A stretch of DNA of 64,000 nt from Verrucomicrobia bacterium LP2A (GTDB lineage: Bacteria > Verrucomicrobiota > Verrucomicrobiia > Methylacidiphilales > Methylacidiphilaceae): assembly GCA_000526255.1 (NCBI GenBank), contig JAFS01000001.1, positions 1,116,001 to 1,180,000 of the forward strand, given 5' to 3'. A program made the translations under genes and the position numbers. Positions 872 through 32,973 of this stretch are shown here, one piece after another (position 1 is the stretch's first letter; each line of letters begins with the position of its first letter). The notes beneath the pieces were generated by a model. The model was not told the DNA's origin, did not search any database, and saw only the letters and a program-made list of their open reading frames with translations.

Positions 872-3800
872 ATGGCGACGAGCGCAGTCTTCGTTGGTGT
901 CAACAAGCACCGCGATCCTTCGATTCCGGAACTTGGCGGTGCGCGCCGCGACGCCACAGCTCTCTGGGCCCTGTTCACCGATACGATCGAAGGCCTTTCG
1001 GCACGCCTCCTCGTCGACGAACGAGCGACGCATGCTGAAGTATCCGCAGCTATCCTCGGTACGCTTGATGCGGCACGAGAGGACGATGTCGTCGTCGTCA
1101 GCTTCGCGGGTCACGGCTCGCCGGACGGCAGCTTGATCCTGTTTGATACCGATGCCGCCGACTTGGCTGGCACCGCGCTGCCGATGGCCGCTTTAGCCGA
1201 CGCCTTCAAGGGGACGAAAGCTCGGGCGCTACTGTGCATCCTGGACTGCAGCTTCAGCGGACGGGCGCCAGCGCGCGTCCTTGAGAGGGAAGTACAATCG
1301 AGGAATGCCTTCCCGCTGGCTGGGGCATACGGTGAAGGCCGGATCCTCCTGGCCGCCTGCGCGACGACCGAATCGGCGTGGGAACAGCCTGGAACCGGAC
1401 ACGGCCTTCTCACCTATGCGACGATCGAAACGCTAACGCGGAGCGCCGGCGAGACAGTGAGCTTTCCCGAGGTGGCTGAGGAGATTATTCGCTTTGCCCG
1501 GGTCGAGGCTGAGCGGATCGGCGTGACTCAAACGCCCGTCTTTCTCGGCAGCGTACAGGGCGGCCTCGTGCTCCCTGCGCTGAGGCGGGGTGAGAACTTC
1601 GCCGCTGCCTTCCCTGCGATCGCGGTCCCGCAGATGTCCGGGTCGTTCATCGACCTGGCCGAGCATGGTTTCCCGCGGGAGATCGTCGATCAATGGGTCG
1701 AGAACTTCCCGCACGGGCTGAACCAACTGCAGCTAAAGGCCGTGAATGATCATGGCGTCCTTGACGGAAAGTCGTTGCTCGTGGTGGCGCCGACGAGCTC
1801 AGGCAAGACTCTAATCGGCGAACTGGCCGCAATCCGGGCGGTGACCGCCGGCAAGAAAGCCGTGTTCCTTCTGCCGTACCGAGCGCTCGTGAACGAGAAG
1901 TTCGAAGATTTCAGCGCGCGTTTCGCACCCGCCGGCTTGCGAGTCGTGCGGTGCAGCGGTGATGCGTCCGATGGTGCGGCTCCCGTCCTCAGCGGACGGT
2001 ATGATCTCGGGCTCTTCACCTACGAGATGTTTCTGAATCTAGCGCTCGGATCCCCGCGTCTGCTCAATCAACTCGCTTTGGTGGTGCTCGACGAAGGCCA
2101 ATTCACCACTGATCCCACGCGCGGGATTACGGTCGAGCTCATCCTGACCTTGCTGCTTCGGGCGCGACAGCGTGGTATCGAACCCCAGCTTGTCATCTTG
2201 TCGGCCGTTATCGGGAACTTGAATAACTTCGACAGATGGCTGGATTTGCCTGTTCTGAGCTCGCGCGAGCGGCCGGTTCCGCTGATCGAAGGCGTGCTCG
2301 ATCGGCAAGGTGTCTTTCAATTTGTCGACGTAGATGGGACGACAAAGACGGAACCGCTGCTCTCGGCTTACGAGATCGTGCAGCGGCAGGACAAGGCATC
2401 TTCCCAAGATGTGATCGTTCCGCTGGCGAAGCAGCTGGTCGGCAACGGTGAGAAGCTGCTTATTTTTCGGAGCTCCCGCGGCCGCGCGCAGGGTACTGCC
2501 CAGTATCTCTCAAAGGAGCTTGGGCTTCTGCCCGCAACGGGGGTGATCGCTCTCCTTCCGACTCAGGACCTGACAGCCGCTTCTCAGGATTTGCGCGAAT
2601 GCTTGCAGGGAGGCACGGCCTTCCACAATACCAACCTGCTCCGCGCCGAGCGCGAAGCGATCGAGCGGGGATATCGAGCCGCCCAGGACGGCATCCACGT
2701 CCTGGGCGCTACCACCACGCTCGCGGCTGGGATCAACACGCCCGCCTCCACCGTTGTCCTCGCTGAGACCAAATTCGCCAGCGAGGATAGACGGCCCTTC
2801 ACCGTCGCCGAGTACAAGAATATGGCTGGGCGGGCGGGTCGGCTGGGCTACAACGAGAACGGAAAGGCGATCATTCTGGCCAGGTCACCGGCGGAGCGTG
2901 CTCGGCTCTTTCAGCAATATGTGCTAGGGACCCCCGAAGGGATCACCTCATCCTTCCAACAGCGCGACCTCCCAACCTGGACGCTGCGCTTGCTCAGCCA
3001 GGTCCGGGGCGTGCGCCCAGAAGAGATCCCGGGTCTCCTGGTCAACACCTTTGGAGGTTATTCCGCCTCGCTCCGCGACCCTCAGTGGATACCGAGCGTC
3101 GAAGGGGAGGTGTCGGAACTGGTCACGCGCCTACTCGAAGCAGGCCTCGCGGAGCGAGATGGCGAACTGATCCATCTGACACTGCTTGGGCGGGCTTGTG
3201 GAGCATCGTCGCTCTCTTTCGAGTCGAGCCTGCGCCTCATCAAGTTGGTGCGTCAGCTCAACATCACGCAGGCGGACCCGATTCAGATGCTCGCCATCGT
3301 CCAGGTCTTGCCCGAAATGGACCGCATCTACACGCCAGTGATGAAGCGCGGTTCGTCTGAGAGCGTGCGGGCGAGCGATGCGATCCAGCGCTTCGGCCAC
3401 GCCATAGCTGGGGAACTTCAACGCTACTGCAAACCGTTCGAGTTCTGGGCACGCTGCAAACGGGCGTTGCTTCTCTTCGACTGGATTGCGGGCACCTCTA
3501 TCGGCGAACTGGAGCGGCGCTATTCGACGACGCCGTGCCAAGGGGTAGTTCGCTATGGTGATATCATTGGCATCGCGGACGGCGCGCGTTTCCATCTCCG
3601 GTCAGCCCATCAGGTTCTCTCTGCATTGTTTCCTGAGCAGCCGGCGTTTCTTATGGCGCTGGATGAGCTTCTGCGCAGGCTGGAATTCGGATTGCCGGCG
3701 GCCGCGCTCGGGCTGACCGAGCTGCCGATTAATCTGTGCCGTGGGCAGTATCTCGCTTTAGCCGCCGCCGGCGCGAGTAACGCCGAAGGCGCGAAAAGCT

Positions 3801-3898
3801 TGGATCTCGGTACCCTGATACGTTGCGTGGGGGAAGCCGCCGCAAAAGCGATTGCTACAATGCGTGAAGCGCCTGCTCAATCTAGGCTGGGTGGATAG
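872..3898 (+). CDS. Caspase-like peptidase fused to Ski2-type DEAD/DEAH helicase
   Basis: This 1008-residue protein joins two enzymes. Residues 1-235 form a peptidase C14 (caspase/metacaspase) domain: the catalytic His is in FAGHG (H81) and the Cys in DCSFSG (C126). From about residue 280 a superfamily 2 helicase begins, with a Q-like motif (LNQLQLKAVN), Walker A APTSSGKT (306-313), a Walker B variant DEGQ (407-410) and motif VI NMAGRAGRLG (about 650), the last typical of Ski2/Hel308 enzymes. The C-terminal ~300 residues look helical (winged-helix/ratchet-like). The likely logic is a nucleic-acid-sensing motor that switches on a protease. It sits directly behind the nucleotidyltransferase gene in one operon. 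An anti-phage role is inferred from architecture and from the island context. Confidence 0.82.
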   Translation: MATSAVFVGVNKHRDPSIPELGGARRDATALWALFTDTIEGLSARLLVDERATHAEVSAAILGTLDAAREDDVVVVSFAGHGSPDGSLILFDTDAADLAGTALPMAALADAFKGTKARALLCILDCSFSGRAPARVLEREVQSRNAFPLAGAYGEGRILLAACATTESAWEQPGTGHGLLTYATIETLTRSAGETVSFPEVAEEIIRFARVEAERIGVTQTPVFLGSVQGGLVLPALRRGENFAAAFPAIAVPQMSGSFIDLAEHGFPREIVDQWVENFPHGLNQLQLKAVNDHGVLDGKSLLVVAPTSSGKTLIGELAAIRAVTAGKKAVFLLPYRALVNEKFEDFSARFAPAGLRVVRCSGDASDGAAPVLSGRYDLGLFTYEMFLNLALGSPRLLNQLALVVLDEGQFTTDPTRGITVELILTLLLRARQRGIEPQLVILSAVIGNLNNFDRWLDLPVLSSRERPVPLIEGVLDRQGVFQFVDVDGTTKTEPLLSAYEIVQRQDKASSQDVIVPLAKQLVGNGEKLLIFRSSRGRAQGTAQYLSKELGLLPATGVIALLPTQDLTAASQDLRECLQGGTAFHNTNLLRAEREAIERGYRAAQDGIHVLGATTTLAAGINTPASTVVLAETKFASEDRRPFTVAEYKNMAGRAGRLGYNENGKAIILARSPAERARLFQQYVLGTPEGITSSFQQRDLPTWTLRLLSQVRGVRPEEIPGLLVNTFGGYSASLRDPQWIPSVEGEVSELVTRLLEAGLAERDGELIHLTLLGRACGASSLSFESSLRLIKLVRQLNITQADPIQMLAIVQVLPEMDRIYTPVMKRGSSESVRASDAIQRFGHAIAGELQRYCKPFEFWARCKRALLLFDWIAGTSIGELERRYSTTPCQGVVRYGDIIGIADGARFHLRSAHQVLSALFPEQPAFLMALDELLRRLEFGLPAAALGLTELPINLCRGQYLALAAAGASNAEGAKSLDLGTLIRCVGEAAAKAIATMREAPAQSRLGG

Positions 3899-6595: not shown

Positions 6596-8110
6596 TCAGA
6601 ACTGGAAAAGCGGGCTCGGATTGCTTTGAGAGACGACGAGCATTAATCGCTCCTTCGCCCTACTGAGGGCGACATACAAGAGGCACCGAGCATCCTCCCG
6701 GTCTGGAAAGGTGGTGGCGTCGCATGGCATCACTACGACGTTGCCGCATTCGAGCCCTTTGGCTTTGTGGATCGTGCTGATGGCGGCATCAGGCGGTTTT
6801 GGCCGCCCGTAGGTGCGGCGGTGGGTTATCTCGGCAAAACCCGAATCAATATCTTCGAAGTTGCCAAGTTTGACCGCCTCCCAGAACTCCCTGCCATGAT
6901 CCATCTCAATCTCGGAGAAATCCGCGTCGCCTTGTTTCAGCTCGGCCAAGCGGGCGAGAAGCTTGGCCACGCCGCGGTGATCGGGCTCAGCCAGCAGGAA
7001 GCGGCCAAGCTCTTGAATCTTGCCAGGCTTGCCTCGACTCCTCGCCCTGCAGCCTTCGCGCACTTCCGTTTTCAACCGATCGCCGAATGCTGAGGGACTG
7101 AAGCCTTTGCCGACGCCGTTCATGAATGCCACGACTGCGGCAACAAGCTCGGAACAGTTGCCGCGGCCCTCTGAGATTGCGTTAACAAGCTTTTCAAGCC
7201 ACGGCCGTGTGTGACCTTCCCACAGAGGGAGCCGGCGGTTGAAGAACGCACGCAACGAGCGTGCAGTCTCGTTGTAACGCGTAAGCACGAGCAGCGAGGC
7301 GTGGGATCGTGTGAATGCGTCGATGGCTCGCCGGTCGGTCGAACCAAGCTGATAGTTCCTGTCCCTACGCGCTTGGTTTTCCGCGACCACGATGGAGACG
7401 CTGGCAGGAAGGTTCTTGCGGAGATCGATCTTCCCACCGCTCTTGAGCACCGCCCGTGCCACAAGGGTCCAACTCCCGAGGTCCGGGCACCCGCTCCAGC
7501 GGTGCGGTGTGTCGAGTTCCTCGAACGCGTGGGCCTGTTTTATGAGAGCGCCCCAATCGTACGCCGGATTGGAGCCAGCCAGTGGTGTTTCCTTGAAAAT
7601 GCGCTGCACCGGGTCTGCGAACACCCGCAATCTGGCGCCTTGATTGAGCAGGGCCATGCCGAGCGCATGCTGATCGCCGGTGCAGTCCTGATGCTCGTCG
7701 CAGATCACGACAGGATAGCGTCTGGCCAAAGCTGCGGCGATCATCGGGTGCTGCTTGAGCAGGACTGCGACGCGAAGCGCAACTTTCCGATAACCGTCAC
7801 GCTCTTTTCGCGCCCAGGTCGGCACGTCAGCCGGGAGGTCAAGCCCGAGATGATAAGCGCTGGCGATACTCGTGATGAGACTGTCGATCGTGCGAATCTC
7901 GACACGACTACCGCTGCCTCTGGTGCGCTCGGCGAACACCGAGCAGGCGGCGTGAGTATGCGTCAGGATCAGGATACGGTCGGTTAGACAGGCTGCGACG
8001 TCACGGGCGTAGTCCGCGCCCTGGTGGGTCTTTCCGCAACCGGCCGGGGCTTCGACCAGCACCAGCGGTGCGTCCGACCTCAAGGCTGCATGGACGGATT
8101 TGTCGCTCAT
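6596..8110 (-). CDS. gajB: GajB-like UvrD/Rep-family helicase (Gabija 1)
   Basis: A 504-residue superfamily 1A helicase. Motif I is EAPAGCGKT and motif II is CDEHQD. Motif III is near VFADPVQRIF, motif V is STIHKAKGLE and motif VI is LLYVALSRAKERLML. The length fits GajB, a compact UvrD-like helicase. The chosen ATG (8108-8110) overlaps the TGA of the upstream GajA-like gene (ATGA, 8107-8110), so translation is coupled. A longer reading from 8197 lies inside gajA and is unlikely. In studied Gabija systems GajB binds the GajA tetramer and senses or processes DNA termini during phage infection. That role is transferred by homology. The gene is last in the operon and ends just before the 6450-6570 repeat. 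Confidence 0.85.
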   Translation of the reverse strand: MSDKSVHAALRSDAPLVLVEAPAGCGKTHQGADYARDVAACLTDRILILTHTHAACSVFAERTRGSGSRVEIRTIDSLITSIASAYHLGLDLPADVPTWARKERDGYRKVALRVAVLLKQHPMIAAALARRYPVVICDEHQDCTGDQHALGMALLNQGARLRVFADPVQRIFKETPLAGSNPAYDWGALIKQAHAFEELDTPHRWSGCPDLGSWTLVARAVLKSGGKIDLRKNLPASVSIVVAENQARRDRNYQLGSTDRRAIDAFTRSHASLLVLTRYNETARSLRAFFNRRLPLWEGHTRPWLEKLVNAISEGRGNCSELVAAVVAFMNGVGKGFSPSAFGDRLKTEVREGCRARSRGKPGKIQELGRFLLAEPDHRGVAKLLARLAELKQGDADFSEIEMDHGREFWEAVKLGNFEDIDSGFAEITHRRTYGRPKPPDAAISTIHKAKGLECGNVVVMPCDATTFPDREDARCLLYVALSRAKERLMLVVSQSNPSPLFQF

Positions 8111-9864
8111 CCATGGAGGTCCAAAATCTCGCTGAGGCCGACGGCCTTTCGAACAGCATTGCAGAAGGGGAGAAGCTGGGGCTTCAACTCTGGCCAAAGC
8201 GTGAGACTGAAGAGCTTATCAGCCAGTTCACGCCCGCCGGCGATCGATTTGAACCATCGGCCGGCATGAGCTTTGTATTCCTTTTTCTCACTTTCCTTGC
8301 CGGCAGGAACGACGCCAAGAGCGGCCTTGATAATGAGGTCCTTGAAGCCGCTGCCGGCGGTCGTCTTGACGGCAGCAAAGTCCTTACTGGGGATTCCGAG
8401 GCGATCGGCCAAGATACGCAATCGGTCGCCAGTTTTTTCGCCGCTGGGATCGGTGATCAATTCTTCCAGCTTGTTGTCGGGCACGACGGCGATGATGTTT
8501 TCTTCAATGCAGCGCGACGGCCACCGGAAAAGCAGGGCGCCGAGCTTCGTGTGCAGCTTCGCCCAGCGCGTGGGATATTTGCCTTCGTCGTCCGCAAATC
8601 CCCCGAAGCGCAAGCCGCCCGCTGCCAGGGCTTCCAAGATGTCAAGCGTGGTGTCGTGCCCACCGCCGTCACTGACGTGGACGCCATGTTTCTCGAGCGA
8701 GGAGCCGAACGCGCGCTCAAGGATAGCCGTGGTGAACCCGAGTTCGGTCGCGCCCTCCGCCACCACGGCGAGCCGCGACAGGAAGGCTTCCGGATCGGTC
8801 TTGCGGTGCTTCGCAATCTTAGTCCCATCGAGCGGCCCGATTTGACCGGTATGGTCCACGTACCAGAGCGAGGATTGTTCCGCGGCCGAGAGGACGGTCG
8901 GGCTGTGGGTGGTCAGAAATACCTGGGACGAGCCGGTCTGGAGCTTCTCAATCAACATTCGCTGCCGGTAGGGTTCGAGCCCGCGCTCCACCTCGTCGAC
9001 AAGAGTGATCGGCGCCTCGCCCTGGTTCTGCGCGGCGATGGCGAGCGCCGACAATCTCCGCGTTCCCGCTCCCCAACTCGCAAGGGGCAATGGGACGCCG
9101 GAGCGATCCGCGGTGAGGCCAATCATTGACGCGATCGATGCGCCTTGGCCGCCGGTGATCGCGAGGTCGAGGCCGGCGGGGAGGCTTTCATTTCTGAACG
9201 CAGTGTCGAGGTTCTTGAGCTCAGTCTGCGCCTCGGTGGTCAACTTCTTCTTGACGTCATTTTTCGCCAGCTCGCTTGCCATGCGCGAGCGCAGGCCTTT
9301 GTCGGAGAGTAGCCGGTCGAGTGCGGAACCCTGGACCAGCCTGAGATCGCGGTCATTGCGATCGTCGCCGAGCAGCCGGACTAGGCCGATGGTGCGCCGC
9401 AGAGCGACGGGAAAGCTGTCAGCAGAGCCGTCGGGCTGGATAATTTCATAGGCGAGTTCGAGGTCTTCGGTGCCGCGGACACGAACACGGTAAACCGGCT
9501 CGCCGCTGGATTGACCATCGTGTTCGAGAGTAGGAACGGATGCTTCTTCACCAGTCCATTCCCAAGGCCACGAGGGTTTCAATTGGCTGTTTATCCCGCC
9601 GCCTGCCGGCAGAAACAGTACAGCCTCTATGGAGAAGCCCGCGTCGATATGTCGATTGTAATAGTCGGGATCGGAGAGTGTCGTCGGATTTACCGGACTG
9701 AGGAGGAGTGCGATGGCTTCGAGGATCGTGGTCTTGCCGACGTCGCCGCCGCCTAGAATGACATTCACGCCGCGCGACGGCTTCCACTTGAGAGACGTGA
9801 TGCCGCGAAATCGCTCGACGGTGAGAGCGTAGATCGTTGGGGCCAGTGACGCGGCGTCGGTCAT
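8107..9864 (-). CDS. gajA: GajA-like OLD-family ATPase/TOPRIM nuclease (Gabija 1)
   Basis: A 585-residue class 2 OLD nuclease. The N-terminal ABC-type ATPase has Walker A GGGDVGKTTILEA, and a signature/Walker B region near ALAIAAQNQG...TLVDEVERGL followed by the D-loop/His switch FLTTHSPTVLSA. The C-terminal TOPRIM domain shows the glutamate motif VVAEGATE and acidic residues GGFADDEG. GajA proteins are nucleotide-gated DNA nickases that act with GajB. Both ends overlap neighbours by four bases (ATGA at 9861-9864 with the Fic gene, ATGA at 8107-8110 with gajB), which marks a tight three-gene operon. RecF or SbcC was considered, but the TOPRIM domain and helicase neighbour argue for Gabija. 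Confidence 0.87.
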   Translation of the reverse strand: MTDAASLAPTIYALTVERFRGITSLKWKPSRGVNVILGGGDVGKTTILEAIALLLSPVNPTTLSDPDYYNRHIDAGFSIEAVLFLPAGGGINSQLKPSWPWEWTGEEASVPTLEHDGQSSGEPVYRVRVRGTEDLELAYEIIQPDGSADSFPVALRRTIGLVRLLGDDRNDRDLRLVQGSALDRLLSDKGLRSRMASELAKNDVKKKLTTEAQTELKNLDTAFRNESLPAGLDLAITGGQGASIASMIGLTADRSGVPLPLASWGAGTRRLSALAIAAQNQGEAPITLVDEVERGLEPYRQRMLIEKLQTGSSQVFLTTHSPTVLSAAEQSSLWYVDHTGQIGPLDGTKIAKHRKTDPEAFLSRLAVVAEGATELGFTTAILERAFGSSLEKHGVHVSDGGGHDTTLDILEALAAGGLRFGGFADDEGKYPTRWAKLHTKLGALLFRWPSRCIEENIIAVVPDNKLEELITDPSGEKTGDRLRILADRLGIPSKDFAAVKTTAGSGFKDLIIKAALGVVPAGKESEKKEYKAHAGRWFKSIAGGRELADKLFSLTLWPELKPQLLPFCNAVRKAVGLSEILDLHG

Positions 9865-11258
9865 TTCGCCTCCCAGACTTGCCGCCAGGCCGCGAATTCC
9901 GAGGGCCGAATTCGATAGCGGGCGAAATTGCCTTCATGCAGGCTTGTGAGTTCGGCCTCGACGATCTCGCCGAAACGCTGGCGGTCGTCTTGGCTGATTT
10001 CTCTCGTTGACCAGGCGGCTATTCGCGCCGCGGCATCCCTGCGACTGACGCGCGCCCGGACGAGGTCGGCGATCAACTCCCGAAATTGCTCTCGATAGCG
10101 AAGTCGGAACGGATCGGGTTCACCAAGGGATTGACGAACGGCGGCGTAGCGGGCGGCCGAACGCTCGTAGGCCCAGATGAAGACGTCCTTGAGAAGATCG
10201 ATCTTGTTCAGCTCATAGACGCCGAGTACGGCTTCCATATAGGTCGCCCGGGGTACATCGGCGAATGATAGCGGCGATAGGTTGCGCTTGATGAGCGGGA
10301 TGTTCGCCGCGAGGCGCGAAACGCGCTTGTTCCCGTCGTCGAAGGGCTGCAGGTAGGGGAGCTGCACCATGACGAAGAAGGCTTGCTCGAAAGGATCGAT
10401 GATCGCAGCCGCCGTCGCCAGAATCTGATCGAAGGTTTCCTCAACGAGCTGCGGCACTTCCAGCGGATGAAATGCCGAGCGCTCGATGCCGACCGCGATA
10501 TAACGCAGCCTGCCGGCTGCTGTGGGATCGGCCAGGAGGTTGTTGGCCAGAAGCGCGTGGAGATTGAGGATGGTGTAGCGGTTGAAGCCGATCTCGTCGG
10601 CGGCGCTGACCAGGAATTCGATCGCGTCCTTGTGGTTCAGGATCATCTGCGCTTCAAGGTGCGCGCGCCCCTCCGCTTCTTCGCCCAACTCAATGAGACG
10701 CTTGGTATCGAGGAGCGAGTAGGTATTGCCTTCGAGGCGGCTTGAATTCCAAGCGAGATCGATCAGAAGCCTGTTGAGGATCTGCATGGCGTAGGTGCCG
10801 GCGGGCTGTTCGGCGATCTGCGAGCGGCCGATGGCCGCAAGATGTGCGCGATCCTCCTCGGTCAGGTAAAAGGAATCGTTCGGCCGATAGCGGTCGAGGA
10901 ATTTACGGTCGTAGCCGACCGGCTTGCGGGCTTCGAGCGCGCGCTGAACATAGTCACGGATAGATGCCCCTGCCTCGGATAGAGGAATCGCGGGCGGTTC
11001 GGCCTCAGGACGCGCAGCGACCTCGGCTGGAGGGATAGCGGCGGCACCAGGGGATATCCGGTACCTCGCCCAGCGGCCTTCGCCGTCCATCACCAGTCGT
11101 TTTCGGTCAACGAGAGATTTCAGGCGGTACTGGAGGGTTCGAAGGGGAATCGGGCCCGCAAGGGAGCGCAGGACCTCTTGCGCCGACGCGCCGTCAGGAT
11201 AGCGGCGGACGGCCTCTTCGATGGAGGCCAACGCATCGGCGGGGGTTTGCTTCGCCAA
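9861..11258 (-). CDS. Fic-fold protein with N-terminal winged helix, catalytic His replaced by Gln
   Basis: This is the first gene of the Gabija 1 operon. The protein has an N-terminal winged-helix segment (SIEEAVRRYPDGASAQEVLR through RWARYRIS), a Fic_N-like region with the inhibitory motif SSRLEGNT ([S/T]xxxE[G/N]) and a Fic domain whose signature reads LQPFDDGNKRVSRL. Canonical Fic AMP-transferases have HPFx(D/E)GNGRxxR, so the catalytic His is Gln and NGR is NKR. It may be inactive or use another chemistry. A TTG at 11258 with AAAGG upstream is the chosen start because it leaves the palindrome cluster in the promoter. A longer start at 11318 is possible. A regulator or guard role for the Gabija pair is inference. 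Confidence 0.82.
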   Translation of the reverse strand: MAKQTPADALASIEEAVRRYPDGASAQEVLRSLAGPIPLRTLQYRLKSLVDRKRLVMDGEGRWARYRISPGAAAIPPAEVAARPEAEPPAIPLSEAGASIRDYVQRALEARKPVGYDRKFLDRYRPNDSFYLTEEDRAHLAAIGRSQIAEQPAGTYAMQILNRLLIDLAWNSSRLEGNTYSLLDTKRLIELGEEAEGRAHLEAQMILNHKDAIEFLVSAADEIGFNRYTILNLHALLANNLLADPTAAGRLRYIAVGIERSAFHPLEVPQLVEETFDQILATAAAIIDPFEQAFFVMVQLPYLQPFDDGNKRVSRLAANIPLIKRNLSPLSFADVPRATYMEAVLGVYELNKIDLLKDVFIWAYERSAARYAAVRQSLGEPDPFRLRYREQFRELIADLVRARVSRRDAAARIAAWSTREISQDDRQRFGEIVEAELTSLHEGNFARYRIRPSEFAAWRQVWEAK

Positions 11259-11270
11259 AATGGGACCTTT

Positions 11271-11369
11271 CTTGCGCGTAGAGCTTATGCGCAAGAATGG
11301 CTCGGGCTCGCGCAACAATCAAGTCTATGCGCAGGCATTCTATCTACGCGCAATAAACATTGCGCGTAG
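11271..11369 (-). promoter_or_regulatory. Palindrome cluster upstream of the Fic-Gabija operon
   Basis: Two perfect palindromes flank this control region: arms CTTGCGC/GCGCAAG at 11271-11295 (11-base spacer) and arms CTACGCGCAAT/ATTGCGCGTAG at 11344-11369 (4-base spacer). Further half-sites of the same TGCGC(A/G) core lie between them (around 11310 and 11328). Such a cooperative operator array suits autoregulation by the winged helix of the Fic protein. Promoter boxes within it are not clear. Confidence 0.65.
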
Positions 11370-11375
11370 CGAGAC

Positions 11376-11570
11376 TCAGCCGCCCTTGGCCTGTTTCCCG
11401 AACGCCGTAAGGAACGTAGCATTGATCCCATCCGGCTTCCGATGAGCCTTGGTTAGTGCGGTTTCACAGCGTTCCCACAGGGCATCTGCCGCGCCGGGGC
11501 TTGAGACGAGTTTGAGCAGGACACCCCTGAGCCACCATTTCTCACGAAGGCCCACCAGAACGAGAAGCAA
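11376..11570 (-). pseudogene. 3' fragment of an unidentified gene cut by the IS1380 element
   Basis: About 65 in-frame residues read from GLREKWWLRGVLLK to FGKQAKGG before a TGA at 11376-11378. The composition looks protein-like (charged, helical), whereas the upstream part of the same frame runs into the IS1380 remnant. It is in the same direction as the Fic-Gabija operon and ends just before the palindrome cluster, so it may be the remains of a gene that once preceded that operon. I do not recognise the family. Confidence 0.4.
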
Positions 11571-11639
11571 GAAAGCCTGCAGAAGAGCACAGGAAAGGCC
11601 ACCTTTCCCTGGTATAAAGTGCGTTAAGCAGACGTAATT

Positions 11640-12435
11640 ACAACGAGGAAGGAAAGCGGCCTTCTCTGACAGAGCGGATCGAAGAGACTTTTGGGTTGAG
11701 AGCCTATTTTTCGCGTCGGGGGAAAGCGGGATTCCCCTAGGACGGGTTTCGAGCGATGGGGACGCAATCCTCTTACGAAAAGCCGATCGGAAGATCCGTT
11801 TGTGAAGACGGCTGGAGCGCTGCTTCCGGGATCGACGCCATCCGGGGCGCATCGTACATCGGATGCGAGAGATGCAGGTGCCGCGCATCTTCGGGATTGC
11901 GCTAGGCTACGAGGCTCTCAATGACCACGAGCAGCTGCATACCGATCCGTTGGTGGCTCTCCTGAGCGGCAAAAGGGATCGGGGAGAGGATCTGGCGGGC
12001 AAGAGTACGCTTGAGCCGCCTGGAACGGGTGGGTCGAAGAGAACGCTACCACAAGATCGATTCCTCAGCCGAAACCGTCGATCGGTGATTGGTCGATCTC
12101 TCCCTTGAAGCGCATCCCCAGCCTCCCAAGGAGGTGGTGCTCGGGTTCGATGCGACCAACATCCCTCTTTACGGACAAGAGCCCGAGCGCTTCTTCCTTG
12201 GGGTTTCCGATGCGTATTGTGATTTGCCGCTCTCCATCTTCGCTAAAGATCAACTCCTCGGTGTGCGGCTTCGGCCATCGAACCCGGATGCGGCGGAGGG
12301 ATCCCTTGCCGAGATCCTCCGGATCGTGGGACACCTCCGCACCCATTGGCCCGAGGTCAGGATCGTGCTCCAGGCCGACTCGGGGCTTCTGCCGGAAGTG
12401 GTGGACAAGGCCAACGCCCTCACCTCCTCGTGAGC
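11640..12435 (+). mobile_element. Degenerate IS1380-family transposase remnant
   Basis: The central part reads RIFGIALGYEALNDHEQLH, the conserved block of IS1380 transposases (GYEDLNDH.LR.DP), followed by LAGKSTL. A +1 frameshift near 12005 moves the frame to LSRLERVGRRERYHKIDS. An in-frame TGA at 12086-12088 interrupts what should be DRWLVDL. Then VLGFDATNIPLYGQ and CDLPLSIFAKDQLL follow, with the second catalytic Asp in LQADSG. The frame breaks again after DSG, where IS1380 proteins continue DSGFCR. Upstream (stop at 11803) the N-terminal half is unreadable. The element is dead. Its 3' end merges with the 120-bp repeat. Confidence 0.8.
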
Positions 12436-13240: not shown

Positions 13241-13655
13241 AAAGCGGCAGGAGCGTGCTCCGGCTGCCAACGCCTTGCGCCCCAGCCCAGGGCAGAGCTT
13301 TCGCTGGAAACAAGCACAACCCCTGCCAAGATTGGGGATGAAGGGGGGGGAATGCGGCTTTCCGCTTTTGACGACTCGTGTCCAGATGCTGTCCATCGTG
13401 TGCTATGGCGGCATGGTTTGACGCCATTCCGCGCACTAGCTGGGCGAAACGCTGCCGTCGGCCATCGGGCATCTCGACGCCAACGAATCGTCAGAGATTC
13501 GACAGGACCGCCGTCAGGAGCCGGAACTTCCGCTCTTGCTCCATTCGGACGAACATTGTGGACTGATCAACCCACGGGCAACCCTTTCCCCTCGTTGTGA
13601 TCGCGACGTTTAACGTTCGTTGCTGATCTCCCGGGCATGCCTCATGGTATTGACG
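13241..13655. other. Gene-poor stretch before the Avs-like gene
   Basis: About 415 bases with no convincing full gene. Short frames on both strands (for example 13378-13566 plus and 13224-13472 minus) look like IS-derived debris or chance. The promoter of the Avs-like gene should be in the last part, but no clear -35/-10 pair or ribosome binding site stands out. Confidence 0.35.
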
Positions 13656-16600
13656 ATGGGGCCCGATACCGATAGCCAGCCGTTAATCCACGACCCTGCT
13701 CGAGAAGCGGTGGCATCGATACGGGGCTACGAGGCTCAATTCTGGAGGAGCGTCCTCGTCTGGATGGAACTGAAGGACGAGGAACGCCTCTACCTCGAAT
13801 GCGCGGAAGACATCGACCGGATCAGCGGCACCGGGGCGGAGACTGTCCAGGTCAAAAACGTGGCTGGCAATATCACGTTGAGGTCGCCCGATGTGATCAA
13901 GGCCATCAACAACGCCTGGGAGCATCAACAACGCAATCGACAGCGCAACATAAAGTTTCGATTCCTGACTACATCCGGAATCGGCATTGAGCACGGCGAA
14001 CCCTTCGGGCCCGGAATCGGCGGATTGCGGTTTTGGACCGAGAGCCGCGCATTGGAGGATGAAGCTGAACGTGGACGCACTGCTCGGAAGATTGCGGATT
14101 TTCTCTTGGACGAAGCAAAGGTTTCGCTGCCGGTGCAAAGATTTTTGCGGGAGGCGTCGGACTCGGAGATTTGGAAGAGGATGGTTGCCGCAGTCGAATG
14201 GGACACCGAGGCCGAAGAGGTTCCGGAGATCGTCCGCGAGATCAAGGATCGGCTTGTCCTGCTTGGAAAAGAGGCTTTCGTTGCGCCTGATAAATCCAAG
14301 GAGGTAGCGGACTCGCTGTTCAAGACAGTCTTCGAGACTGCGACGCGGGGGAAGGACCGGTCTCTGATACGCGCGAAGCTGTGGGAGCTTTTCTATGAGC
14401 GGACATACGTCTCGGTGCCGGCCGCAGCCTTCAACCAGCTGCTCCACTCTGTTGCGCAACATCATTTGATGTCTGCCGGGCCATTGCCGATGGCAATCGG
14501 TGGCAGGGCGAGTTGGATCGGTCGTCCACCGCCGCTACCTCTACGTTATTACCATCGCCAGGCGATAATGGACGAGATCGCCGCTCGGCTTTCTTCCAAT
14601 CCTGTGCTGGTTTTGCAGGGGGGCACCGGCGTTGGCAAATCGATTACCGCCGCTGGCCACGCTACTCTATCGACCTCGTCTTGGGGATGGGTCGACATGC
14701 GAGGGGTGCCGGCTGCGACACTCGCCGATCGGCTCGAGTGTGTCGTCGGCGAGCTTGCCGCGGAGGAGGGGATCAAAAATCTCGTGCTGGATAACATCGA
14801 GCTGCCTGCCGATGCGCGCGCTCTCGAGGCGCCCATGGAGCGAATTGCAGCTATTGTCCGTGAGCGCAGCGGCCATCTCATCGTTACTTCCGCCATAGCG
14901 CTGCCGCAGCGCTTGAACCTCGCATTGGCATTGCCCGAAAGCGGGATGATGTCGATCCCGGCGTTCTCGCGGGATGAGATTCGAGAATTCCTGCTGCTCC
15001 GGGGATGTCCAGGACCCCCCGTCGTCGATGGCTGGGCTGCCTTCATCGAATTACATACCAGCGGCCATGCGCAGCTCGTGCATGCGCGGATCGCCACACT
15101 CGAAGAACAAGGTTTCCCGACGCCGGAAATGCCAAGTGCGCTTGCAACGCCCACCGATGTCGTCAAAGCGCAGGAGGAAGCGAGGCGGCTGATTACCGCG
15201 CTGGATCTCCCGACGCGCGAGCTCGCCTACCGACTGAGCCTCACACCTCACGCTCTGCCCAAGGGCCAGGTGATCGCAATTGCGAATTTACAGTCGCCTA
15301 TCCCCGAGCCTGGACTCGCGTTGGATCGGCTGGTTGGACCCTGGGTCGAAGTGGTGGCGGACGGGCTCTACAGGATCTCGCCCCTCCTGCGCAATCTCGG
15401 CGTGGAAATCCAGGGCGAGGCTTGGGCAACGCAGATGCATTGGGATATCGCCCAGAGATTTCTGAGCTTCGAGATCCTCTCGCCGATCGATGTTTCGACG
15501 ATGCTGTTCCATGCCACGGCATCGAAGAATTGGTCGGCAGTAGCGCATCTCACTTCCGGTATCCTGAAGGCAGACAACGAGACTTGGGAGGCCCTGGCAC
15601 GGAGCGCGGGCTGGTTCGTTTTCGTGGGCATTAAAAGTGCGATTCGCCCGGAGACCGACGCCTCTTCACTTGTTCTGCTGCGAAGCTTGCAGTTCCGTTT
15701 GGCGGCCGCGGCTCGCGACGACAAGGGCGCTGCGGCCGTCATTGCCAGCATAGATGAAGAATTGCCGGCGACGGTCAACGATACACCGCAACGACTGGCG
15801 CGGTACTTCTTTCTCGGGCAAGTCCTGCTGCGGACAGAAGTGAAGCTGCCGATGGCGCAGCTCGTAGCGATGAGTCTCGAATACATCCGGCTCGGGGATG
15901 AATTGAAGGAGGTGCTCGTCGCCATCCATAAGCCTGAATTCGACCGCACCATGGCCGGACCGGACGGCATTCCCGATCTGGCCGGAGTGGCTGGCTTCAC
16001 GCTTAGCTCGCATGTGGTGGATCGGCAAAGCTTGTCGTCGCTGCTGCTTGCGTGCGAGCCGCTCGATCCGACGGTGGTCCGCCGCCTTTTGTGGTTTGTC
16101 GGCGGCCGGGAATCTACGGCTCGACAGACCCTCGACCGCGTATGGTTGGCCGAATCGCAATTGGAGACGCCGGACTGGATCGCATGTCGACGGGTCTTCG
16201 AGGATACCTATGCGCTGGCGCGCCGCTGTGCGCTACTCGGCTTGGCCCAGGGTGCGGCCTACGCCATTGCGCGGTTGACCGATGAAAATCTCAACGACTC
16301 AGCCGATGCGCTGCGCCGCGCGGACGCGATGATGGCAGAGATCGGCTCATCACCGGTCCAGGAAGATGGTCGCGCGTTGATCTTGTTGCGCAAGGGCAAT
16401 GCCTCGGATGCGCTAGCAATCTGGCGGGAGCTGCTCCCGCGCTGGACCCAGCGTGACGAGTTCGATCGCCAACAGACCGTTTCGCATCGACTTGCAGCGG
16501 TCGCTGCAGCGCGATTGGGTCATTGGAAGGAAGCTGCGGGCTGGTTGCGCAGTGCCCGGTTGCTGGCGGACAGCGTCAATGCGGCCCTCTACTGCGCGGG

Positions 16601-17738
16601 TCTGTGGGTCGACGAAGCATTTACGCGCTGGAAAAGCGGCGATCATCGCGGCGCTCTCGATTGTGCGGTCGAAGGACTCGAAGCGATCGATCGGCTCCCG
16701 TCCGACGCCGCTGATGAAGGCGCCTATCTCCTACGAAAGCGCGCCAACCTCACCATCATCTGGATGGTGCGGTCGACTGCGGGCTCGCCCCCGACCGGGT
16801 TAACTGAGCCCCCTCCGGCATGGTGCAGCAGCCTGGAGCCCGTGAAGGAGGCCCAAAGAACGCCGAAGTCCAGCGATGCGGCATGGCTACATATCCTGGA
16901 ATTCGAGTTTGCTAGTGGCTTGGGCGATTCGCACTTCCGGAAGTTGGAAGCCCGGTTGAAAACCTCCCCCTACAGCCTGATTCGTTACGCATTCAATAGA
17001 TTGCGCTTACAACACCGACTGCGCAGCCTGATGCTCGAGGATTTTCCAGAGGCGGTTGGTGATTGGACAACCAGTTTTGCTTTGTGCCGCCGTTCTTTCA
17101 AAAAAGATGGCCTCGGCGCAGGGGACTCCCTTGCTGCCGATGCAATCATACCTGAGCATGATCCAGTTGATGCGGAGCTGGTCCTCAGTGGAATGTTGAG
17201 CGCGGTTTTCGCGCTGGCCGCGCGAGGCGCGGTGACGAGCACCATGCTCAACCAATGGTCCTTGAGCGCATCGCGCGCCGACCTGTCTGCAACGATCGAT
17301 CCTTGGTTGAAATTCGTAGCAGGGCTTTTCGTCGACAACACCATCAATGCGCAGACGGCTCTGCGCGATATGTCCCTAGCGTGGCCCTGGCGGGCGGTAG
17401 CGTCGGTCCGGGTGGCGAGTGACCGTGCGACACGGCCGGTCGAGCTGCTGATGACTCACCATGATTGGACCAGCCTGCTGCCCAAGGCACCAGCTGGTTT
17501 CATTGTTCTTGCCGATGTGGAGCACCTGGTGGTGAGCGCATGGCTTCGGCTTGCAAAACGCCATTTCCTGCTCCGTGCGCCCGCGGTAACAGCTGCGTCG
17601 CTCGAACGGGCGTGCGCGAGCGCAGATAGAGGTTGGAGCAAGATCGGAAAGGTTCTGCTCGCGGCGTGCGATGCAGTACCGGCCGAGGTTCCGGCGGAAT
17701 TTCGACAGCGATTTGAAGAGTTACAATGGGCGCCTTGA
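13656..17738 (+). CDS. Avs-like protein: Cap4/DUF4297-type nuclease fused to a STAND NTPase
   Basis: About 1360 residues. The N-terminal ~230 residues match the Cap4/DUF4297 endonuclease pattern: a GY..Q entry (IRGYEAQFWRSV), then LYLECAEDID and VQVK, which supply the acidic and lysine residues of a PD-(D/E)XK site. Next is a STAND-type NTPase with Walker A LQGGTGVGKS (about residue 320) and Walker B NLVLDNIEL (about 380). The remaining ~850 residues are helical and TPR-like (many A.L/W-rich helices), as expected of a phage-protein sensor. Avs proteins oligomerise when they bind phage terminase or portal and then cut DNA. That role is inferred here. ATG 13656 is preferred, 13644 or TTG 13620 are alternatives, and none has a strong ribosome binding site. 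Confidence 0.78.
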   Translation: MGPDTDSQPLIHDPAREAVASIRGYEAQFWRSVLVWMELKDEERLYLECAEDIDRISGTGAETVQVKNVAGNITLRSPDVIKAINNAWEHQQRNRQRNIKFRFLTTSGIGIEHGEPFGPGIGGLRFWTESRALEDEAERGRTARKIADFLLDEAKVSLPVQRFLREASDSEIWKRMVAAVEWDTEAEEVPEIVREIKDRLVLLGKEAFVAPDKSKEVADSLFKTVFETATRGKDRSLIRAKLWELFYERTYVSVPAAAFNQLLHSVAQHHLMSAGPLPMAIGGRASWIGRPPPLPLRYYHRQAIMDEIAARLSSNPVLVLQGGTGVGKSITAAGHATLSTSSWGWVDMRGVPAATLADRLECVVGELAAEEGIKNLVLDNIELPADARALEAPMERIAAIVRERSGHLIVTSAIALPQRLNLALALPESGMMSIPAFSRDEIREFLLLRGCPGPPVVDGWAAFIELHTSGHAQLVHARIATLEEQGFPTPEMPSALATPTDVVKAQEEARRLITALDLPTRELAYRLSLTPHALPKGQVIAIANLQSPIPEPGLALDRLVGPWVEVVADGLYRISPLLRNLGVEIQGEAWATQMHWDIAQRFLSFEILSPIDVSTMLFHATASKNWSAVAHLTSGILKADNETWEALARSAGWFVFVGIKSAIRPETDASSLVLLRSLQFRLAAAARDDKGAAAVIASIDEELPATVNDTPQRLARYFFLGQVLLRTEVKLPMAQLVAMSLEYIRLGDELKEVLVAIHKPEFDRTMAGPDGIPDLAGVAGFTLSSHVVDRQSLSSLLLACEPLDPTVVRRLLWFVGGRESTARQTLDRVWLAESQLETPDWIACRRVFEDTYALARRCALLGLAQGAAYAIARLTDENLNDSADALRRADAMMAEIGSSPVQEDGRALILLRKGNASDALAIWRELLPRWTQRDEFDRQQTVSHRLAAVAAARLGHWKEAAGWLRSARLLADSVNAALYCAGLWVDEAFTRWKSGDHRGALDCAVEGLEAIDRLPSDAADEGAYLLRKRANLTIIWMVRSTAGSPPTGLTEPPPAWCSSLEPVKEAQRTPKSSDAAWLHILEFEFASGLGDSHFRKLEARLKTSPYSLIRYAFNRLRLQHRLRSLMLEDFPEAVGDWTTSFALCRRSFKKDGLGAGDSLAADAIIPEHDPVDAELVLSGMLSAVFALAARGAVTSTMLNQWSLSASRADLSATIDPWLKFVAGLFVDNTINAQTALRDMSLAWPWRAVASVRVASDRATRPVELLMTHHDWTSLLPKAPAGFIVLADVEHLVVSAWLRLAKRHFLLRAPAVTAASLERACASADRGWSKIGKVLLAACDAVPAEVPAEFRQRFEELQWAP

Positions 17739-18028: not shown

Positions 18029-19735
18029 TCATGGATCTACCAGTGGTGGCGCACCATGCGGCCGAACAATCGTCACCAGCAACCTCGCCCGCGTTAAAGC
18101 CACTCGCAACAGCCTGCGGCTCGCGTCAAACGGCTGCTTTTCCGGCTTGTCAAAAAACTTGGATTTGAACGCACCCTCTACCAAGACGACGCCATCAAAT
18201 TCCTTTCCCTTCGACTTATGCATGCTCATCAGCACACACCCTTGGGGATCCCGTTCCGTCGCGATCCGCAGCTCCTCCTCGAGAATATGCTTCACCAGAT
18301 CGCTCGCACCCGCGTAGCTGCCCAAATCCAACCACCGGTTGCTAAGACCGGCAGCCAACGCATCTGTCGCTCTACAAAGCCGCACCAGCCGAGCTTCGCG
18401 AAATAGCAGAGTGAAGTTCGGGTTATTTTGTAGGAGACGCAGAGCAGTTTTCCAATCAGCAACAGGCTCGCCGGTCACTTCGATCCCGGCAGCCAGCGCA
18501 GCTACCAATCCATCGGCGGCCTTGATCCGCGGCGCTTCGCCTTTCGCCACCCTATCTGCTGCTTCTGCGTATGCTCTCGCCAGTTTGGCCATCTTCTTAA
18601 TGGGTTTCTCTGCATTCCTGAGTCTATAGAAGGAAGAAATCAGCTGCAGCGTGCGTTCCAGGCTCTTTTCAGCTGGCGCTGCCGACCATTCCAGAATGGA
18701 GGCGACAACGATCGCGGCCGCTACGGAAAGCTCCGCATCCCCTAGCACGTCATGCTTGAGAGCCGGCAAGGCCTGATTCTTGTAAGTATGGTCCTCGGAA
18801 AGAATGACTGACAGATCGGATATCAGCGCGTTGCTTCGCGCAAGCACTGCTACGCTTGGGTTCGCAATTCCCTTCTTCTGGAGCACCGAAAAGGTCGAGA
18901 TGACCATAGCATGTACGATCTCCGCAAACTTCTTCGGCTGATAGTTCACCTGTTTGACATTCGATGTATCAGGCAAGGGACTTCGGTTGTGCAGTACAGC
19001 GTTCGCAAACTTGAGAATTCCCGCATTTGGGCTTCGGTGATTGTCCCGTCCAAGGTCGAACTCTGTAACCTTGATTGCCTCTCGCAGTTTGTCGATCCGA
19101 TGAGGATCAACCTTAGGATTATATTCGAAAATACGCTGTTCTGGATCAGCAAGGCAGAAGAGATCCGTCCCTTCCGATAGGGCTTTCACGATTTTCCATT
19201 GATCGTCGTCTGTATCCTGAAACTCATCGACGATAATCATCGGAAAGCAATCGGCTACCAGCTCACGCAGAGCTGAGCAGCGTTCAAGCAGCTCGGCTGT
19301 ACCTGGGGCAAAGAGATCGAAACAATACAACCCGAACTCGGTCGCCTGCCTCTGACGCTCGACCTGCCAGTCACCTTCGAACGCCGACTTCTGTAGCCGC
19401 TCATCAGCGGGACAGAGAAAGCGGGTCGGCTTTCCGTGGAGCAGGCGACCATGCGCCTCCAACATCTTCATGCAAAAGGCATGATATGTTTGCACATTCA
19501 CGGCACGGCGTTCAGCAGGTGTCAGGATTTCCTTGCAGCGCCGCAAGACTTGGAAGATCGCTGCCCGTGAAAAAGAGAGAAAGAGTATTTCTTGGCCTGG
19601 CTTCAAGTAGGAGTAGCGTTGCTGAGCTTTTAGTAAGGCGAGAGTCGTCTTGCCTGAGCCTGGCCCACCAAGCACTAGAAGATGGCCAGCCTGGGCGATG
19701 ATCGCCTTGCGCTTATCGCAAAGCTCCAGCTTCAT
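18029..19735 (-). CDS. gajB: GajB-like UvrD-family helicase (Gabija 2)
   Basis: A 568-residue superfamily 1A helicase. Motif I is LVLGGPGSGKTTLAL and motif II is IIVDEFQDTDDDQW. Motif III is near FCLADPEQRIFEYN, motif V MSMHKSKGKEFD and motif VI RLLRVALTRARLLV. It follows the OLD-type nuclease gene by 21 bases in the same direction, the gajA-gajB order. The protein ends VRPHGAPPLVDP, with its stop codon next to the ISL3 remnant, so the extreme C-terminus may be slightly altered. It is only distantly similar in motif details to the GajB at 6.6-8.1 kb, so the two Gabija systems look independently acquired rather than duplicated. Confidence 0.85.
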   Translation of the reverse strand: MKLELCDKRKAIIAQAGHLLVLGGPGSGKTTLALLKAQQRYSYLKPGQEILFLSFSRAAIFQVLRRCKEILTPAERRAVNVQTYHAFCMKMLEAHGRLLHGKPTRFLCPADERLQKSAFEGDWQVERQRQATEFGLYCFDLFAPGTAELLERCSALRELVADCFPMIIVDEFQDTDDDQWKIVKALSEGTDLFCLADPEQRIFEYNPKVDPHRIDKLREAIKVTEFDLGRDNHRSPNAGILKFANAVLHNRSPLPDTSNVKQVNYQPKKFAEIVHAMVISTFSVLQKKGIANPSVAVLARSNALISDLSVILSEDHTYKNQALPALKHDVLGDAELSVAAAIVVASILEWSAAPAEKSLERTLQLISSFYRLRNAEKPIKKMAKLARAYAEAADRVAKGEAPRIKAADGLVAALAAGIEVTGEPVADWKTALRLLQNNPNFTLLFREARLVRLCRATDALAAGLSNRWLDLGSYAGASDLVKHILEEELRIATERDPQGCVLMSMHKSKGKEFDGVVLVEGAFKSKFFDKPEKQPFDASRRLLRVALTRARLLVTIVRPHGAPPLVDP

Positions 19736-19756
19736 TTAGATAGGTTTGCTGCAAGA

Positions 19757-21580
19757 TTAACACGAGAGGGGATCACTGCGTTCTCGGTAGTTCGCAAGCT
19801 CTTGATGGATTTCCTCGAGTATTGTCCGGATCGTCTCCGGGAGCTCATCTGCCGTCGAGCAATGGGAAATCAAGATCGCTGCATAACCAGGACCGTAGGC
19901 GTCGCCCTTGCGAGCCTGCAGTACCTTGAGGGTCAACTCTTCAACGTCGGCGTTGGCTGCACTGGCATCATAGCTGGCGACTCCGGAAGGATAGTCGGAG
20001 CGATCCTTCACTTCTTCCAAGAAGCGGCGGAGCACAGCTATCGGTATCTGTTTGACCAGAAGCTTTTCAATGCCCTTTTCCGGTGACTCCCAAGCCCGCG
20101 TGTAACCCTCGCACTTTTCGAGTCTATCGTGGTTGCCGTGAGGTTTGTCGTAGAACACGAACGACAGCTTGCCGAGCGCAGAGAAGATAGACCCATACCG
20201 ATGCACGGAGCCTAATCCGCCCGCGTTGAAGATGCTGACCCCCGCCAAATCGAAATGCATGTAATGTTCGGTTCCAAGGCTCCTTTCCATGACCGACGAG
20301 GCGGCCGGGAACAGCGCCGCTTCCGTAGAGCCTTCAACCACCAATACCGCGCGGCTCAAGATCGCCTCAGCGAACTGACGCCGCTGCGTCCGAAAGTCCC
20401 TTGGTTTGACCATTTCGGTGTTTATCGACCGCCCATTCAAGATTCCTTTTTCATCTCGGTTGAGGATCATGATCTGCTCGGGATCGAACTGCTCGATTAC
20501 ATAGGGCGAATGCGAAGTGACGATGGCCTGTCCCATCTCGGCGAAAACAAACCGCGTCATACGCCGTTGCGTATGCGGTGGCAGCGCAATCTCCGGCTCC
20601 TCCATGGCAAAAATCACCGATTTGTTATCCTTTAGCTGCGCGATGAAGGTTAGCAGAGCAAACACCAAGAGGTTGATCGACCCTGTCCCCAGCCGGCCGC
20701 ATGGAACGAGGTGTTGGCCGGGCTGAGTGGCAAGGAACAACCGCACCACCTCCCGCAGATGCTCTCGCGTCAGGTCCGACGCAAAAAACGCTGTCGAGCC
20801 GTCTCCAGGCGCCAAATTGACGAAATGCGCCACCCGTGACCGGATCCCGTTGCGGATCTGCTTCAACTGGTCAATCTCTCCAATAGCTGGTTCAAGCTTC
20901 CGTAAATGGTCGAGAGTCTGTTGCCACATCTCCGCCGCTCCGTCCCCGCTGAGCTTCAACACGGAATCGAGTAATGAACCTCGCTGAAAGCTCAACGCGC
21001 GAGAACCAGTCCTACGTGCCCGCAGGAAGATGAAGCCGCAAAGCCGCTTATGTGCGCGAGTAAACGGAACGCGGCCTTGGCCTAGCTCGATTTTCGTCTC
21101 TTCATCGAGTGTCTCCGGCTCCTTTATCGGATGGTCGAAGAAGGTGTTTCCGACGAAGTCGTCTTCCTCGCGATCATATCGGCCGATAAAAATCAAGGGC
21201 AGAGCCCAGACCACTCCTGGCTCGTCTGCCTTTTTAAGACCGTCTTCAGCTTCGTCGACGAAAACACCGGCTTGGTCGTCCCAACGGCGAATGTGGTGAC
21301 GAAATCGCCGCTTCGCCTCGTCCGAAAGCTCTGTGAGGATCGCCTCAATGCGTATTTCGGCGGACACTTCTTGATCCTGGTACTGCCCACAGTGGAAATC
21401 GTGCTCGTCGACAATCGGCTTTTGAAAAAGCCGTTCCGGACCTAGCACGAGGTCCAGCGCCTCACACACAGTCGATTTACCGACGTTATTCCCCCCTACA
21501 AGGAGGGTATGACCGAAAAAATCGACCCTCCCCTGAGAAATGCCTCGGAAATTCGTGATCTTCAGGCGCCGAACTCGCAT
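19757..21580 (-). CDS. gajA: GajA-like OLD-family ATPase/TOPRIM nuclease (Gabija 2)
   Basis: A 607-residue class 2 OLD nuclease. It opens MRVRRLKITNFRGISQG, the conserved RecF/OLD N-terminus, with Walker A LLVGGNNVGKSTVCEA. The ATPase C-lobe has VIFAMEEPEIALPP (Walker B) and IVTSHSPYVIEQF (His switch). TOPRIM motifs are LVVEGSTEAAL and FVFYDKPHGN. The start has a good ribosome binding site (GGGGAG, 6 bases upstream of the ATG at 21580). With the downstream UvrD helicase it forms a standard two-gene Gabija system without the Fic gene. The promoter must lie between 21581 and the ISL3 remnant at about 21655. Confidence 0.87.
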   Translation of the reverse strand: MRVRRLKITNFRGISQGRVDFFGHTLLVGGNNVGKSTVCEALDLVLGPERLFQKPIVDEHDFHCGQYQDQEVSAEIRIEAILTELSDEAKRRFRHHIRRWDDQAGVFVDEAEDGLKKADEPGVVWALPLIFIGRYDREEDDFVGNTFFDHPIKEPETLDEETKIELGQGRVPFTRAHKRLCGFIFLRARRTGSRALSFQRGSLLDSVLKLSGDGAAEMWQQTLDHLRKLEPAIGEIDQLKQIRNGIRSRVAHFVNLAPGDGSTAFFASDLTREHLREVVRLFLATQPGQHLVPCGRLGTGSINLLVFALLTFIAQLKDNKSVIFAMEEPEIALPPHTQRRMTRFVFAEMGQAIVTSHSPYVIEQFDPEQIMILNRDEKGILNGRSINTEMVKPRDFRTQRRQFAEAILSRAVLVVEGSTEAALFPAASSVMERSLGTEHYMHFDLAGVSIFNAGGLGSVHRYGSIFSALGKLSFVFYDKPHGNHDRLEKCEGYTRAWESPEKGIEKLLVKQIPIAVLRRFLEEVKDRSDYPSGVASYDASAANADVEELTLKVLQARKGDAYGPGYAAILISHCSTADELPETIRTILEEIHQELANYRERSDPLSC

Positions 21581-32692: not shown

Positions 32693-32973
32693 CACCTGCG
32701 ATCCTTTCATTAGCTCCGCCCGTTATTGAAACGAATCGGACTTCGCTTTAATAACTGGCCTGGCTAATTTAAGCGAGCCTCTCCGTCGCATTCCCTGCCT
32801 GATGCAGCTCCGCGTCCCCGCCATCCCCCAGGCACATTCTGCCACCCAAGCTGAGAGATCCGGCGGCGCGGAATGGCTCCAGGGATCCGAAGCCGGTCCC
32901 CGTGGACCAAGCCATCGTGCATGTCCTCTGACCAGAGGGTGTCACCATTGGCCAGGGGCGCAGAAGCGAGATC
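32602..32973. repeat. PIN-tail/Fic-head duplication, copy 1
   Basis: This 372-bp segment is repeated at 36961-37320 (360 bp) with scattered substitutions and one 12-base gap. It spans the Fic start codons, the AT-rich promoter gap and the 3' end of a PIN toxin gene. Confidence 0.85.
32863..32967 (-). pseudogene. 3' fragment of a PIN-domain toxin gene, copy 1
   Basis: The minus strand reads ASAPLANGDTLWSEDMHDGL and then VHGDRLRI, which fits the C-terminal PIN motif (G...LWSEDm..G......LRI.NPF) of VapC-type RNases. The N-terminal catalytic half is missing and the frame is not continuous with the antitoxin fragment just upstream. Confidence 0.5.

Follow-up and report, generated by a model that had tools for sequence, protein, structure and literature searches.

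A winged-helix pseudo-Fic protein as the probable leader autorepressor of a Gabija operon

Known leader repressors and a Fic-headed Gabija operon

Gabija is among the commonest defence systems. Leader repressors of defence operons are already known, and one of them, BrxR, is associated with many defence systems (PMC9122601). BrxR and CapW (PMC9122601, PMC9122588) are encoded by the first gene of a defence operon, combine a DNA-binding domain with a WYL sensor, have inverted repeats in the promoter and precede diverse defence systems. RptR, a small, single-domain repressor of type I restriction-modification islands without a Fic fold (PMC12255303), also leads its defence island and has repeated operators (TAGCTA) in its own promoter. 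As to Fic proteins, it was suggested that Fic-fused helix-turn-helix (HTH) domains may regulate expression (Kinch 2009), and self-repression via a palindrome at the -35/-10 region was proven for CccR, a Fic-HTH protein of Yersinia pseudotuberculosis (PMC9755527). Here, we describe a Fic-gajA-gajB operon in a 64-kb window of the 2.47-Mb genome of Verrucomicrobia bacterium LP2A (contig JAFS01000001.1; positions below are those of the window, and the whole genome was searched by pattern). Its first gene probably codes for a winged-helix pseudo-Fic autorepressor, which places Gabija under switchable control.

This protein shares with BrxR and CapW the first position in a defence operon, a DNA-binding domain and inverted repeats in the promoter, but it has a degenerate Fic domain instead of the WYL sensor (Pfam searches of the leader protein detected only the Fic domain and no WYL), and its operator consists of several half-sites in an array. 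It resembles RptR in leading a defence operon and in having a promoter with repeated operators, and differs from it in size, domain content and operator sequence. CccR also joins a Fic domain to a DNA-binding domain; however, it is a secreted toxin with an active His-192, a C-terminal HTH and proven autoregulation (PMC9755527), whereas the window protein has an N-terminal HTH, has lost the His, heads a defence operon and has predicted autoregulation. SoFic and other class II Fic AMPylases have in common with it the Fic fold, the inhibitory SxxxEG motif and a winged helix, but in the window protein Gln replaces the catalytic His and the winged helix is at the opposite end. By analogy, this Fic-fold leader is best explained as a new variant that would work like BrxR and CapW. 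Literature text searches revealed neither a Fic protein heading Gabija nor a transcriptional regulator of Gabija, although many journals were outside their coverage and novelty is unproven.

A preliminary description of this region had placed the Fic gene first in an operon with gajA and gajB, all on the minus strand and joined by ATGA overlaps at both junctions, and open reading frames and sequence bear this out. The Fic gene (9861..11258, minus strand) codes for 465 residues, gajA (8107..9864, minus strand) for a 585-residue protein with ABC ATPase and TOPRIM nuclease domains (OLD class 2), and gajB (6596..8110, minus strand) for a 504-residue UvrD-like helicase. As read in the sequence, the Fic stop overlaps the gajA start at 9861..9864 and the gajA stop overlaps the gajB start at 8107..8110 (both minus strand). 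Although the Fic open reading frame extends over 9861-11318, aligned relatives identify the TTG at 11256-11258 (model position 1), which is preceded by an AAAGG box, as the real start; for gajB (open reading frame 6596-8197), alignment with relatives sets the start at the ATG at 8108-8110. ATGA or GTGA was also present at the gajA/gajB junction of 39 of 55 loci without Fic, showing that this overlap is ordinary there, and it was rejected as a special feature. Stoichiometric co-expression, which had been described as built in, does not follow from such overlaps alone. An open reading frame upstream of Fic (11376-11888) matched no Pfam family, and no small antitoxin gene of the kind seen in Fic toxin-antitoxin pairs (FicA/FicT, Phd/Doc) was found beside Fic, the neighbors being gajA downstream and this open reading frame upstream.

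The pseudo-Fic protein and its operator array

The first gene product matched Pfam PF02661 (5e-11) and, weakly, the PADLOC defence candidate PDC-S04. Its Fic motif, QPFDDGNKRVSR (10314..10349, minus strand), is degenerate in comparison with catalytically competent motifs in that Gln replaces the catalytic His. We searched plasmids, virus contigs and genomes for relatives and obtained 68 distinct proteins including that of the window, all 68 of which had Gln at this position (QPFxDxNKRxSR and close variants). Searches behind part of this sample were uneven (for the order of the Bradyrhizobium locus, 6 of 397 genomes; for that of the Variovorax locus, 30 of 399; for that of the Sphingobium locus, 2 of 296), and frequencies within it should not be taken as population estimates. 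The His of the Fic motif is the catalytic base; AMPylation is therefore unlikely, and a role of this protein as an AMPylase was rejected. The class II inhibitory motif was kept in 68 of 68 proteins as [ST][ST]xxE[GN]N and is intact in the window (SSRLEGN, 10725..10745, minus strand). Retention of the phosphate loop and of the inhibitory Glu suggests nucleotide binding. HPF is retained in the four remaining Fic proteins encoded by this genome. A SoFic-like Fic protein (PADLOC, 6.7e-118) with an intact HPFLDGNGR motif is encoded in the window at 31520-32710 (minus strand).

The winged helix proposed in the preliminary description is backed by an AlphaFold2 model, in which the N-terminal ~70 residues form three helices and a hairpin, with a predicted local distance difference test score (pLDDT) of 81-90 for the block of residues 11-70. 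The predicted DNA-recognition helix comprises residues 39-51 (RTLQYRL; 11106..11144, minus strand; pLDDT above 80). This model, built from a 12-row alignment, is good in the winged helix and near the C-terminus only, and its Fic-domain part is mostly poor; its fold matches are weak and were set aside.

Upstream of the Fic gene, we identified an array of TTGCGC-type half-sites; all four matches to TTGCGCRTA in the 64 kb are located at 11272-11368 (0.46 expected). The predicted operator O1, upstream of the promoter, is a perfect inverted repeat (CTACGCGCAAT-4-ATTGCGCGTAG, 11344..11369) that forms a 26-nucleotide (nt) palindrome, and its end coincides with 11369, the last position covered by the preliminary description, in which this palindrome, a central feature here, is not mentioned. 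Just upstream of the -35 element is the half-site TGCGCATA (11326..11333, minus strand), seen as a block of conserved columns in the promoter alignment, and the same alignment predicts a second half-site, TTGCGCG, in the -35/-10 spacer (11309..11315, minus strand). An inverted operator pair, TTGCGCATAAGCTCTACGCGCAA (11272..11294), covers the presumed transcription start just before the ribosome site. Both paired forms, the palindrome and the start-site pair, occur once in the 2.47-Mb genome. The promoter itself is tentative (TTGATT at 11317-11322, a spacer of 17 nt and CATTCT at 11294-11299; 11294..11322, minus strand), its -35/-10 assignment being based only on conservation across nine Fic promoters, and a generic sigma-70 scan did not detect it because it is too weak. 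The window thus has the two features that define a leader autorepressor, a DNA-binding domain in the first gene product and inverted repeats over its own promoter, with binding itself predicted.

Similar arrays were common in the family. A significantly repeated 6-mer (in comparison with shuffled sequences) was present in 45 of 55 Fic upstream regions; in the controls, the same test detected one in 2 of 54 regions located 1 kb downstream of Fic genes and in 1 of 62 regions that precede gajA genes lacking Fic. The repeated word varied with the recognition helix. When helix residue 44 was Tyr or His, the commonest word was TTGCGC (21/21 with a clear class), and when it was Arg, the word was nearly always TGGCGC or TGTCGC, or else a close variant (32/32). 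Among the Arg rows, a scan of all alignment columns showed that residue 38, where the recognition helix begins (Ser/Pro/Ala versus Asn/Asp/Thr), best separates TGGCGC from TGTCGC, and all three informative independent pairs agreed. Such coupling is as expected if the Fic protein binds the array and, with this small sample, lends indirect support to binding.

We infer that control could operate as follows. The Fic winged helix would bind the TTGCGC(R)TA half-sites distributed over the promoter, in the spacer, at the transcription start and in the upstream palindrome. Occupied spacer and start sites would block RNA polymerase and keep Gabija low in healthy cells, and Fic would control its own gene as well as gajA and gajB, via the common transcript and translational coupling. 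The degenerate Fic domain, which appears to have lost AMPylation and kept the NKRxxR loop and the SxxxEG motif, may serve as a ligand or nucleotide sensor; an inducing signal that changes its state would free the DNA, and Gabija expression would rise.

Distribution of the Fic-gajAB unit and its partners

GajA and GajB were identified by PADLOC (PDLC04168, 5e-75, and PDLC04173, 3e-55, respectively), and GajA also matched the OLD-like TOPRIM family PF20469 above cut-off. A sequence search of GajA against solved structures matched PtuA and RecF but not GajA, whereas the fold search did match GajA: the AlphaFold2 model (pLDDT 86) retrieved Bacillus cereus GajA (8sm3_A, 9.3e-16) and the Thermus OLD nuclease (6p74, 3.6e-17) in Foldseek. 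GajB matched the solved GajB by phmmer (8jqb, 8.6e-6). As in described Gabija (PMC10781630), an OLD class 2 nuclease and a UvrD-like helicase of the same fold are encoded by adjacent, co-directional genes. In comparison with B. cereus GajAB (PMC10781630), the window pair is distant in sequence, is headed by Fic and has the TOPRIM acid pair Asp425-x-Glu427 instead of DxD, with Glu370 invariant in a 36-row alignment. Judged by architecture and modelled fold, the gajA-gajB pair is Gabija and is predicted to protect against phages. A second, distinct Gabija pair without Fic is present in the same island (18029-21580, minus strand; gajB-like gene 18029-19735, PADLOC 2e-199; gajA-like gene 19757-21580, 5e-231). 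A 112-codon remnant of another copy of the Fic-linked gajA (94% DNA identity) was found elsewhere in the genome (contig C2, ~867461-867814; L211, 9465-9800).

We scanned GTDB species genomes with a GajA alignment and detected 79 gajA loci. Fic was directly upstream of gajA, in the same gene order, in six of them (a Rhizobiales metagenome-assembled genome (MAG), two Bradyrhizobium, Reyranella, Sphingobium and a Sphingomonadales MAG) and was absent from the other 73. Confinement of the Fic-Gabija pairing to this genome, which the preliminary description named as a refuting outcome, is disproved by these six loci. The ATGA overlap of Fic and gajA is common to the window and all six, and recurrence of both gene order and overlap argues that the arrangement is more than chance. 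In a GajA tree of 75 rows, Fic-bearing sequences formed two separate, strongly supported groups, which requires that Fic was gained or lost at least twice. The larger group has five members and spans two phyla, and the branching orders of Fic and GajA within it are identical, which argues that the Fic-gajAB unit travels together. One Afipia locus (L086) has gajAB of this larger group and lacks Fic; an Acidibrevibacterium plasmid (L023) has Fic without gajAB, yet this Fic is nested in the Gabija-linked Fic clade. In a congener of LP2A, Fic is 99.4% identical and gajA is cut after codon 96. Within the genus and order of LP2A, gajA matches were few; the full-length GajA and Fic proteins most similar to those of the window come from alphaproteobacteria (~85% identity), which points to horizontal transfer. 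No GajA relatives were detected in viral contigs or phage records.

Most Fic relatives are solo genes that have their own operators and no gajA. We rejected Fic as a Gabija-specific component in general, given these relatives and the 73 Fic-less gajA loci. Several relatives were located next to other genes. On one plasmid (L163), Fic is immediately followed by genes for a SIR2-type protein and a short prokaryotic Argonaute; in L164, this pair lies a short distance behind Fic, and in L027 what remains of the SIR2 gene follows Fic with an ATGA overlap. A more distant Fic relative (L169) is located 117 nt before the Shango genes sngA and sngB, and in L183 Fic overlaps the beginning of an HsdS gene that appears to be broken, L182 being similar. 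This partner pattern looks like that of a portable controller of defence rather than a Gabija subunit. In L025 and L172, Fic is divergent from a gene pair for a calcineurin-type phosphoesterase and a large AAA protein, with operators in the shared intergenic region, and may control both sides of it.

Additional genes were found to lead gajAB of the same family. A reverse transcriptase of retron III-A type (PADLOC 3e-153, YADD) was located 42-93 nt upstream in five alphaproteobacterial loci (L047, 1954-6464; L048, L049, L050 and L053). An Rfam scan of L047, L048, L050 and L051 detected no family besides tRNA. Coupling of a retron-like reverse transcriptase to Gabija merits separate study. Other leaders include a Vsr endonuclease in L038 and L039 (upstream of 6001; overlap of 4 nt) and type I specificity subunits in L041, L065 and L082, with a 4-nt overlap in L082. 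On rhizobial plasmids, gajAB was found behind an AbiE toxin-antitoxin pair (L019, 4329-7731), and a DUF1612/HTH_13 protein was upstream of gajA in L021, with a relative of similar size as the neighbor in L022; this domain family was tied to Fic by Kinch 2009. The window also encodes a caspase-like domain fused to a Hel308-type helicase (872-3898, plus strand, 1008 residues), probably a defence protein, and a 1372-residue protein (13620-17738, plus strand) with an N-terminal LmuA/DUF4297 match (3.5e-10) and no Pfam domain, which is likely a large defence protein.

Alternative explanations and significance

The preliminary description had suggested that Fic could regulate, guard or extend Gabija. 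Conservation of operator arrays in front of Fic genes favors transcriptional control, and it is the regulatory role that these data sustain; guarding and extension fare poorly. Fic is no fixed part of Gabija, as 73 of 79 gajA loci lack it. An extended, three-gene Gabija, in which an active Fic toxin or AMPylase would modify a target in the host or phage upon infection, draws on the phage-defence members of the Fic superfamily (SoFic, cited in PMC11514479) and on the retained inhibitory motif of regulated Fic toxins. However, an AMPylating component is disfavored because all 68 proteins have Gln for the catalytic His, which the other Fic proteins of this genome keep; toxicity of CccR needs its Fic motif (H192A tested; PMC9755527), and most related gajAB loci manage without Fic, so that we regard such an effector as quite improbable. 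It is equally hard to credit, and if anything a little harder, that Fic binds GajAB and either keeps the complex switched off or detects when a phage inhibits it. Such a guard or subunit would fit the tight translational coupling of Fic to gajA and the co-inheritance of the two, but equally close Fic relatives occur without gajA, a close member of the gajA clade (L086) lacks Fic, and the same Fic type heads unrelated effectors, which disfavors a GajA-specific interface.

Another explanation, which we consider unlikely though deserving of more weight, is that an independent, self-regulated defence or selfish Fic gene had gajAB appended to it, gajAB borrowing its promoter without any functional link. 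The many solo relatives with their own operators, the weak match to PDC-S04, placement of the same gajAB family behind Vsr and HsdS genes with a 4-nt overlap, and persistence of Fic where gajA is broken or, in L023, absent despite its position inside the Gabija-linked clade are all consistent with this. On the other hand, the unit originated or was retained on two or more occasions, all seven loci share an identical ATGA overlap, Fic and GajA follow matching trees within the five-member clade across two phyla, and the operators would control gajAB anyway. We counted retention of Fic beside the broken gajA of the congener for the autorepressor as well.

Several observations weigh against an autorepressor. 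The Tyr/Arg split at residue 44 is a single change in the tree and not independent evidence, and tree-corrected significance is unattainable for it; at residue 38, no more than three pairs could inform the test (sign test, 0.25). The Fic-domain model is too poor for inspection of the pocket. An activator, or a toxin that represses itself like CccR, would leave similar operators, and the partner pattern could also fit a selfish gene joined by defence genes. Finally, the majority of Fic relatives lack a partner gene, and control of neighbors is not their general role.

With a leader autorepressor still the preferred explanation, the readable operators would make transcriptional control of Gabija directly testable, and the locus would exemplify the conversion of an enzyme fold, Fic, into a transcription switch. 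A broader and more speculative possibility is that pseudo-Fic proteins are widespread immune controllers, whose dead pocket might bind an infection-responsive nucleotide, release the operators and induce downstream Gabija, short Argonaute/SIR2 or Shango genes; if so, Gabija would be an inducible system. Gln-containing Fic proteins together with TTGCGC, TGGCGC or TGTCGC arrays may provide a sequence signature for finding regulated defence operons.

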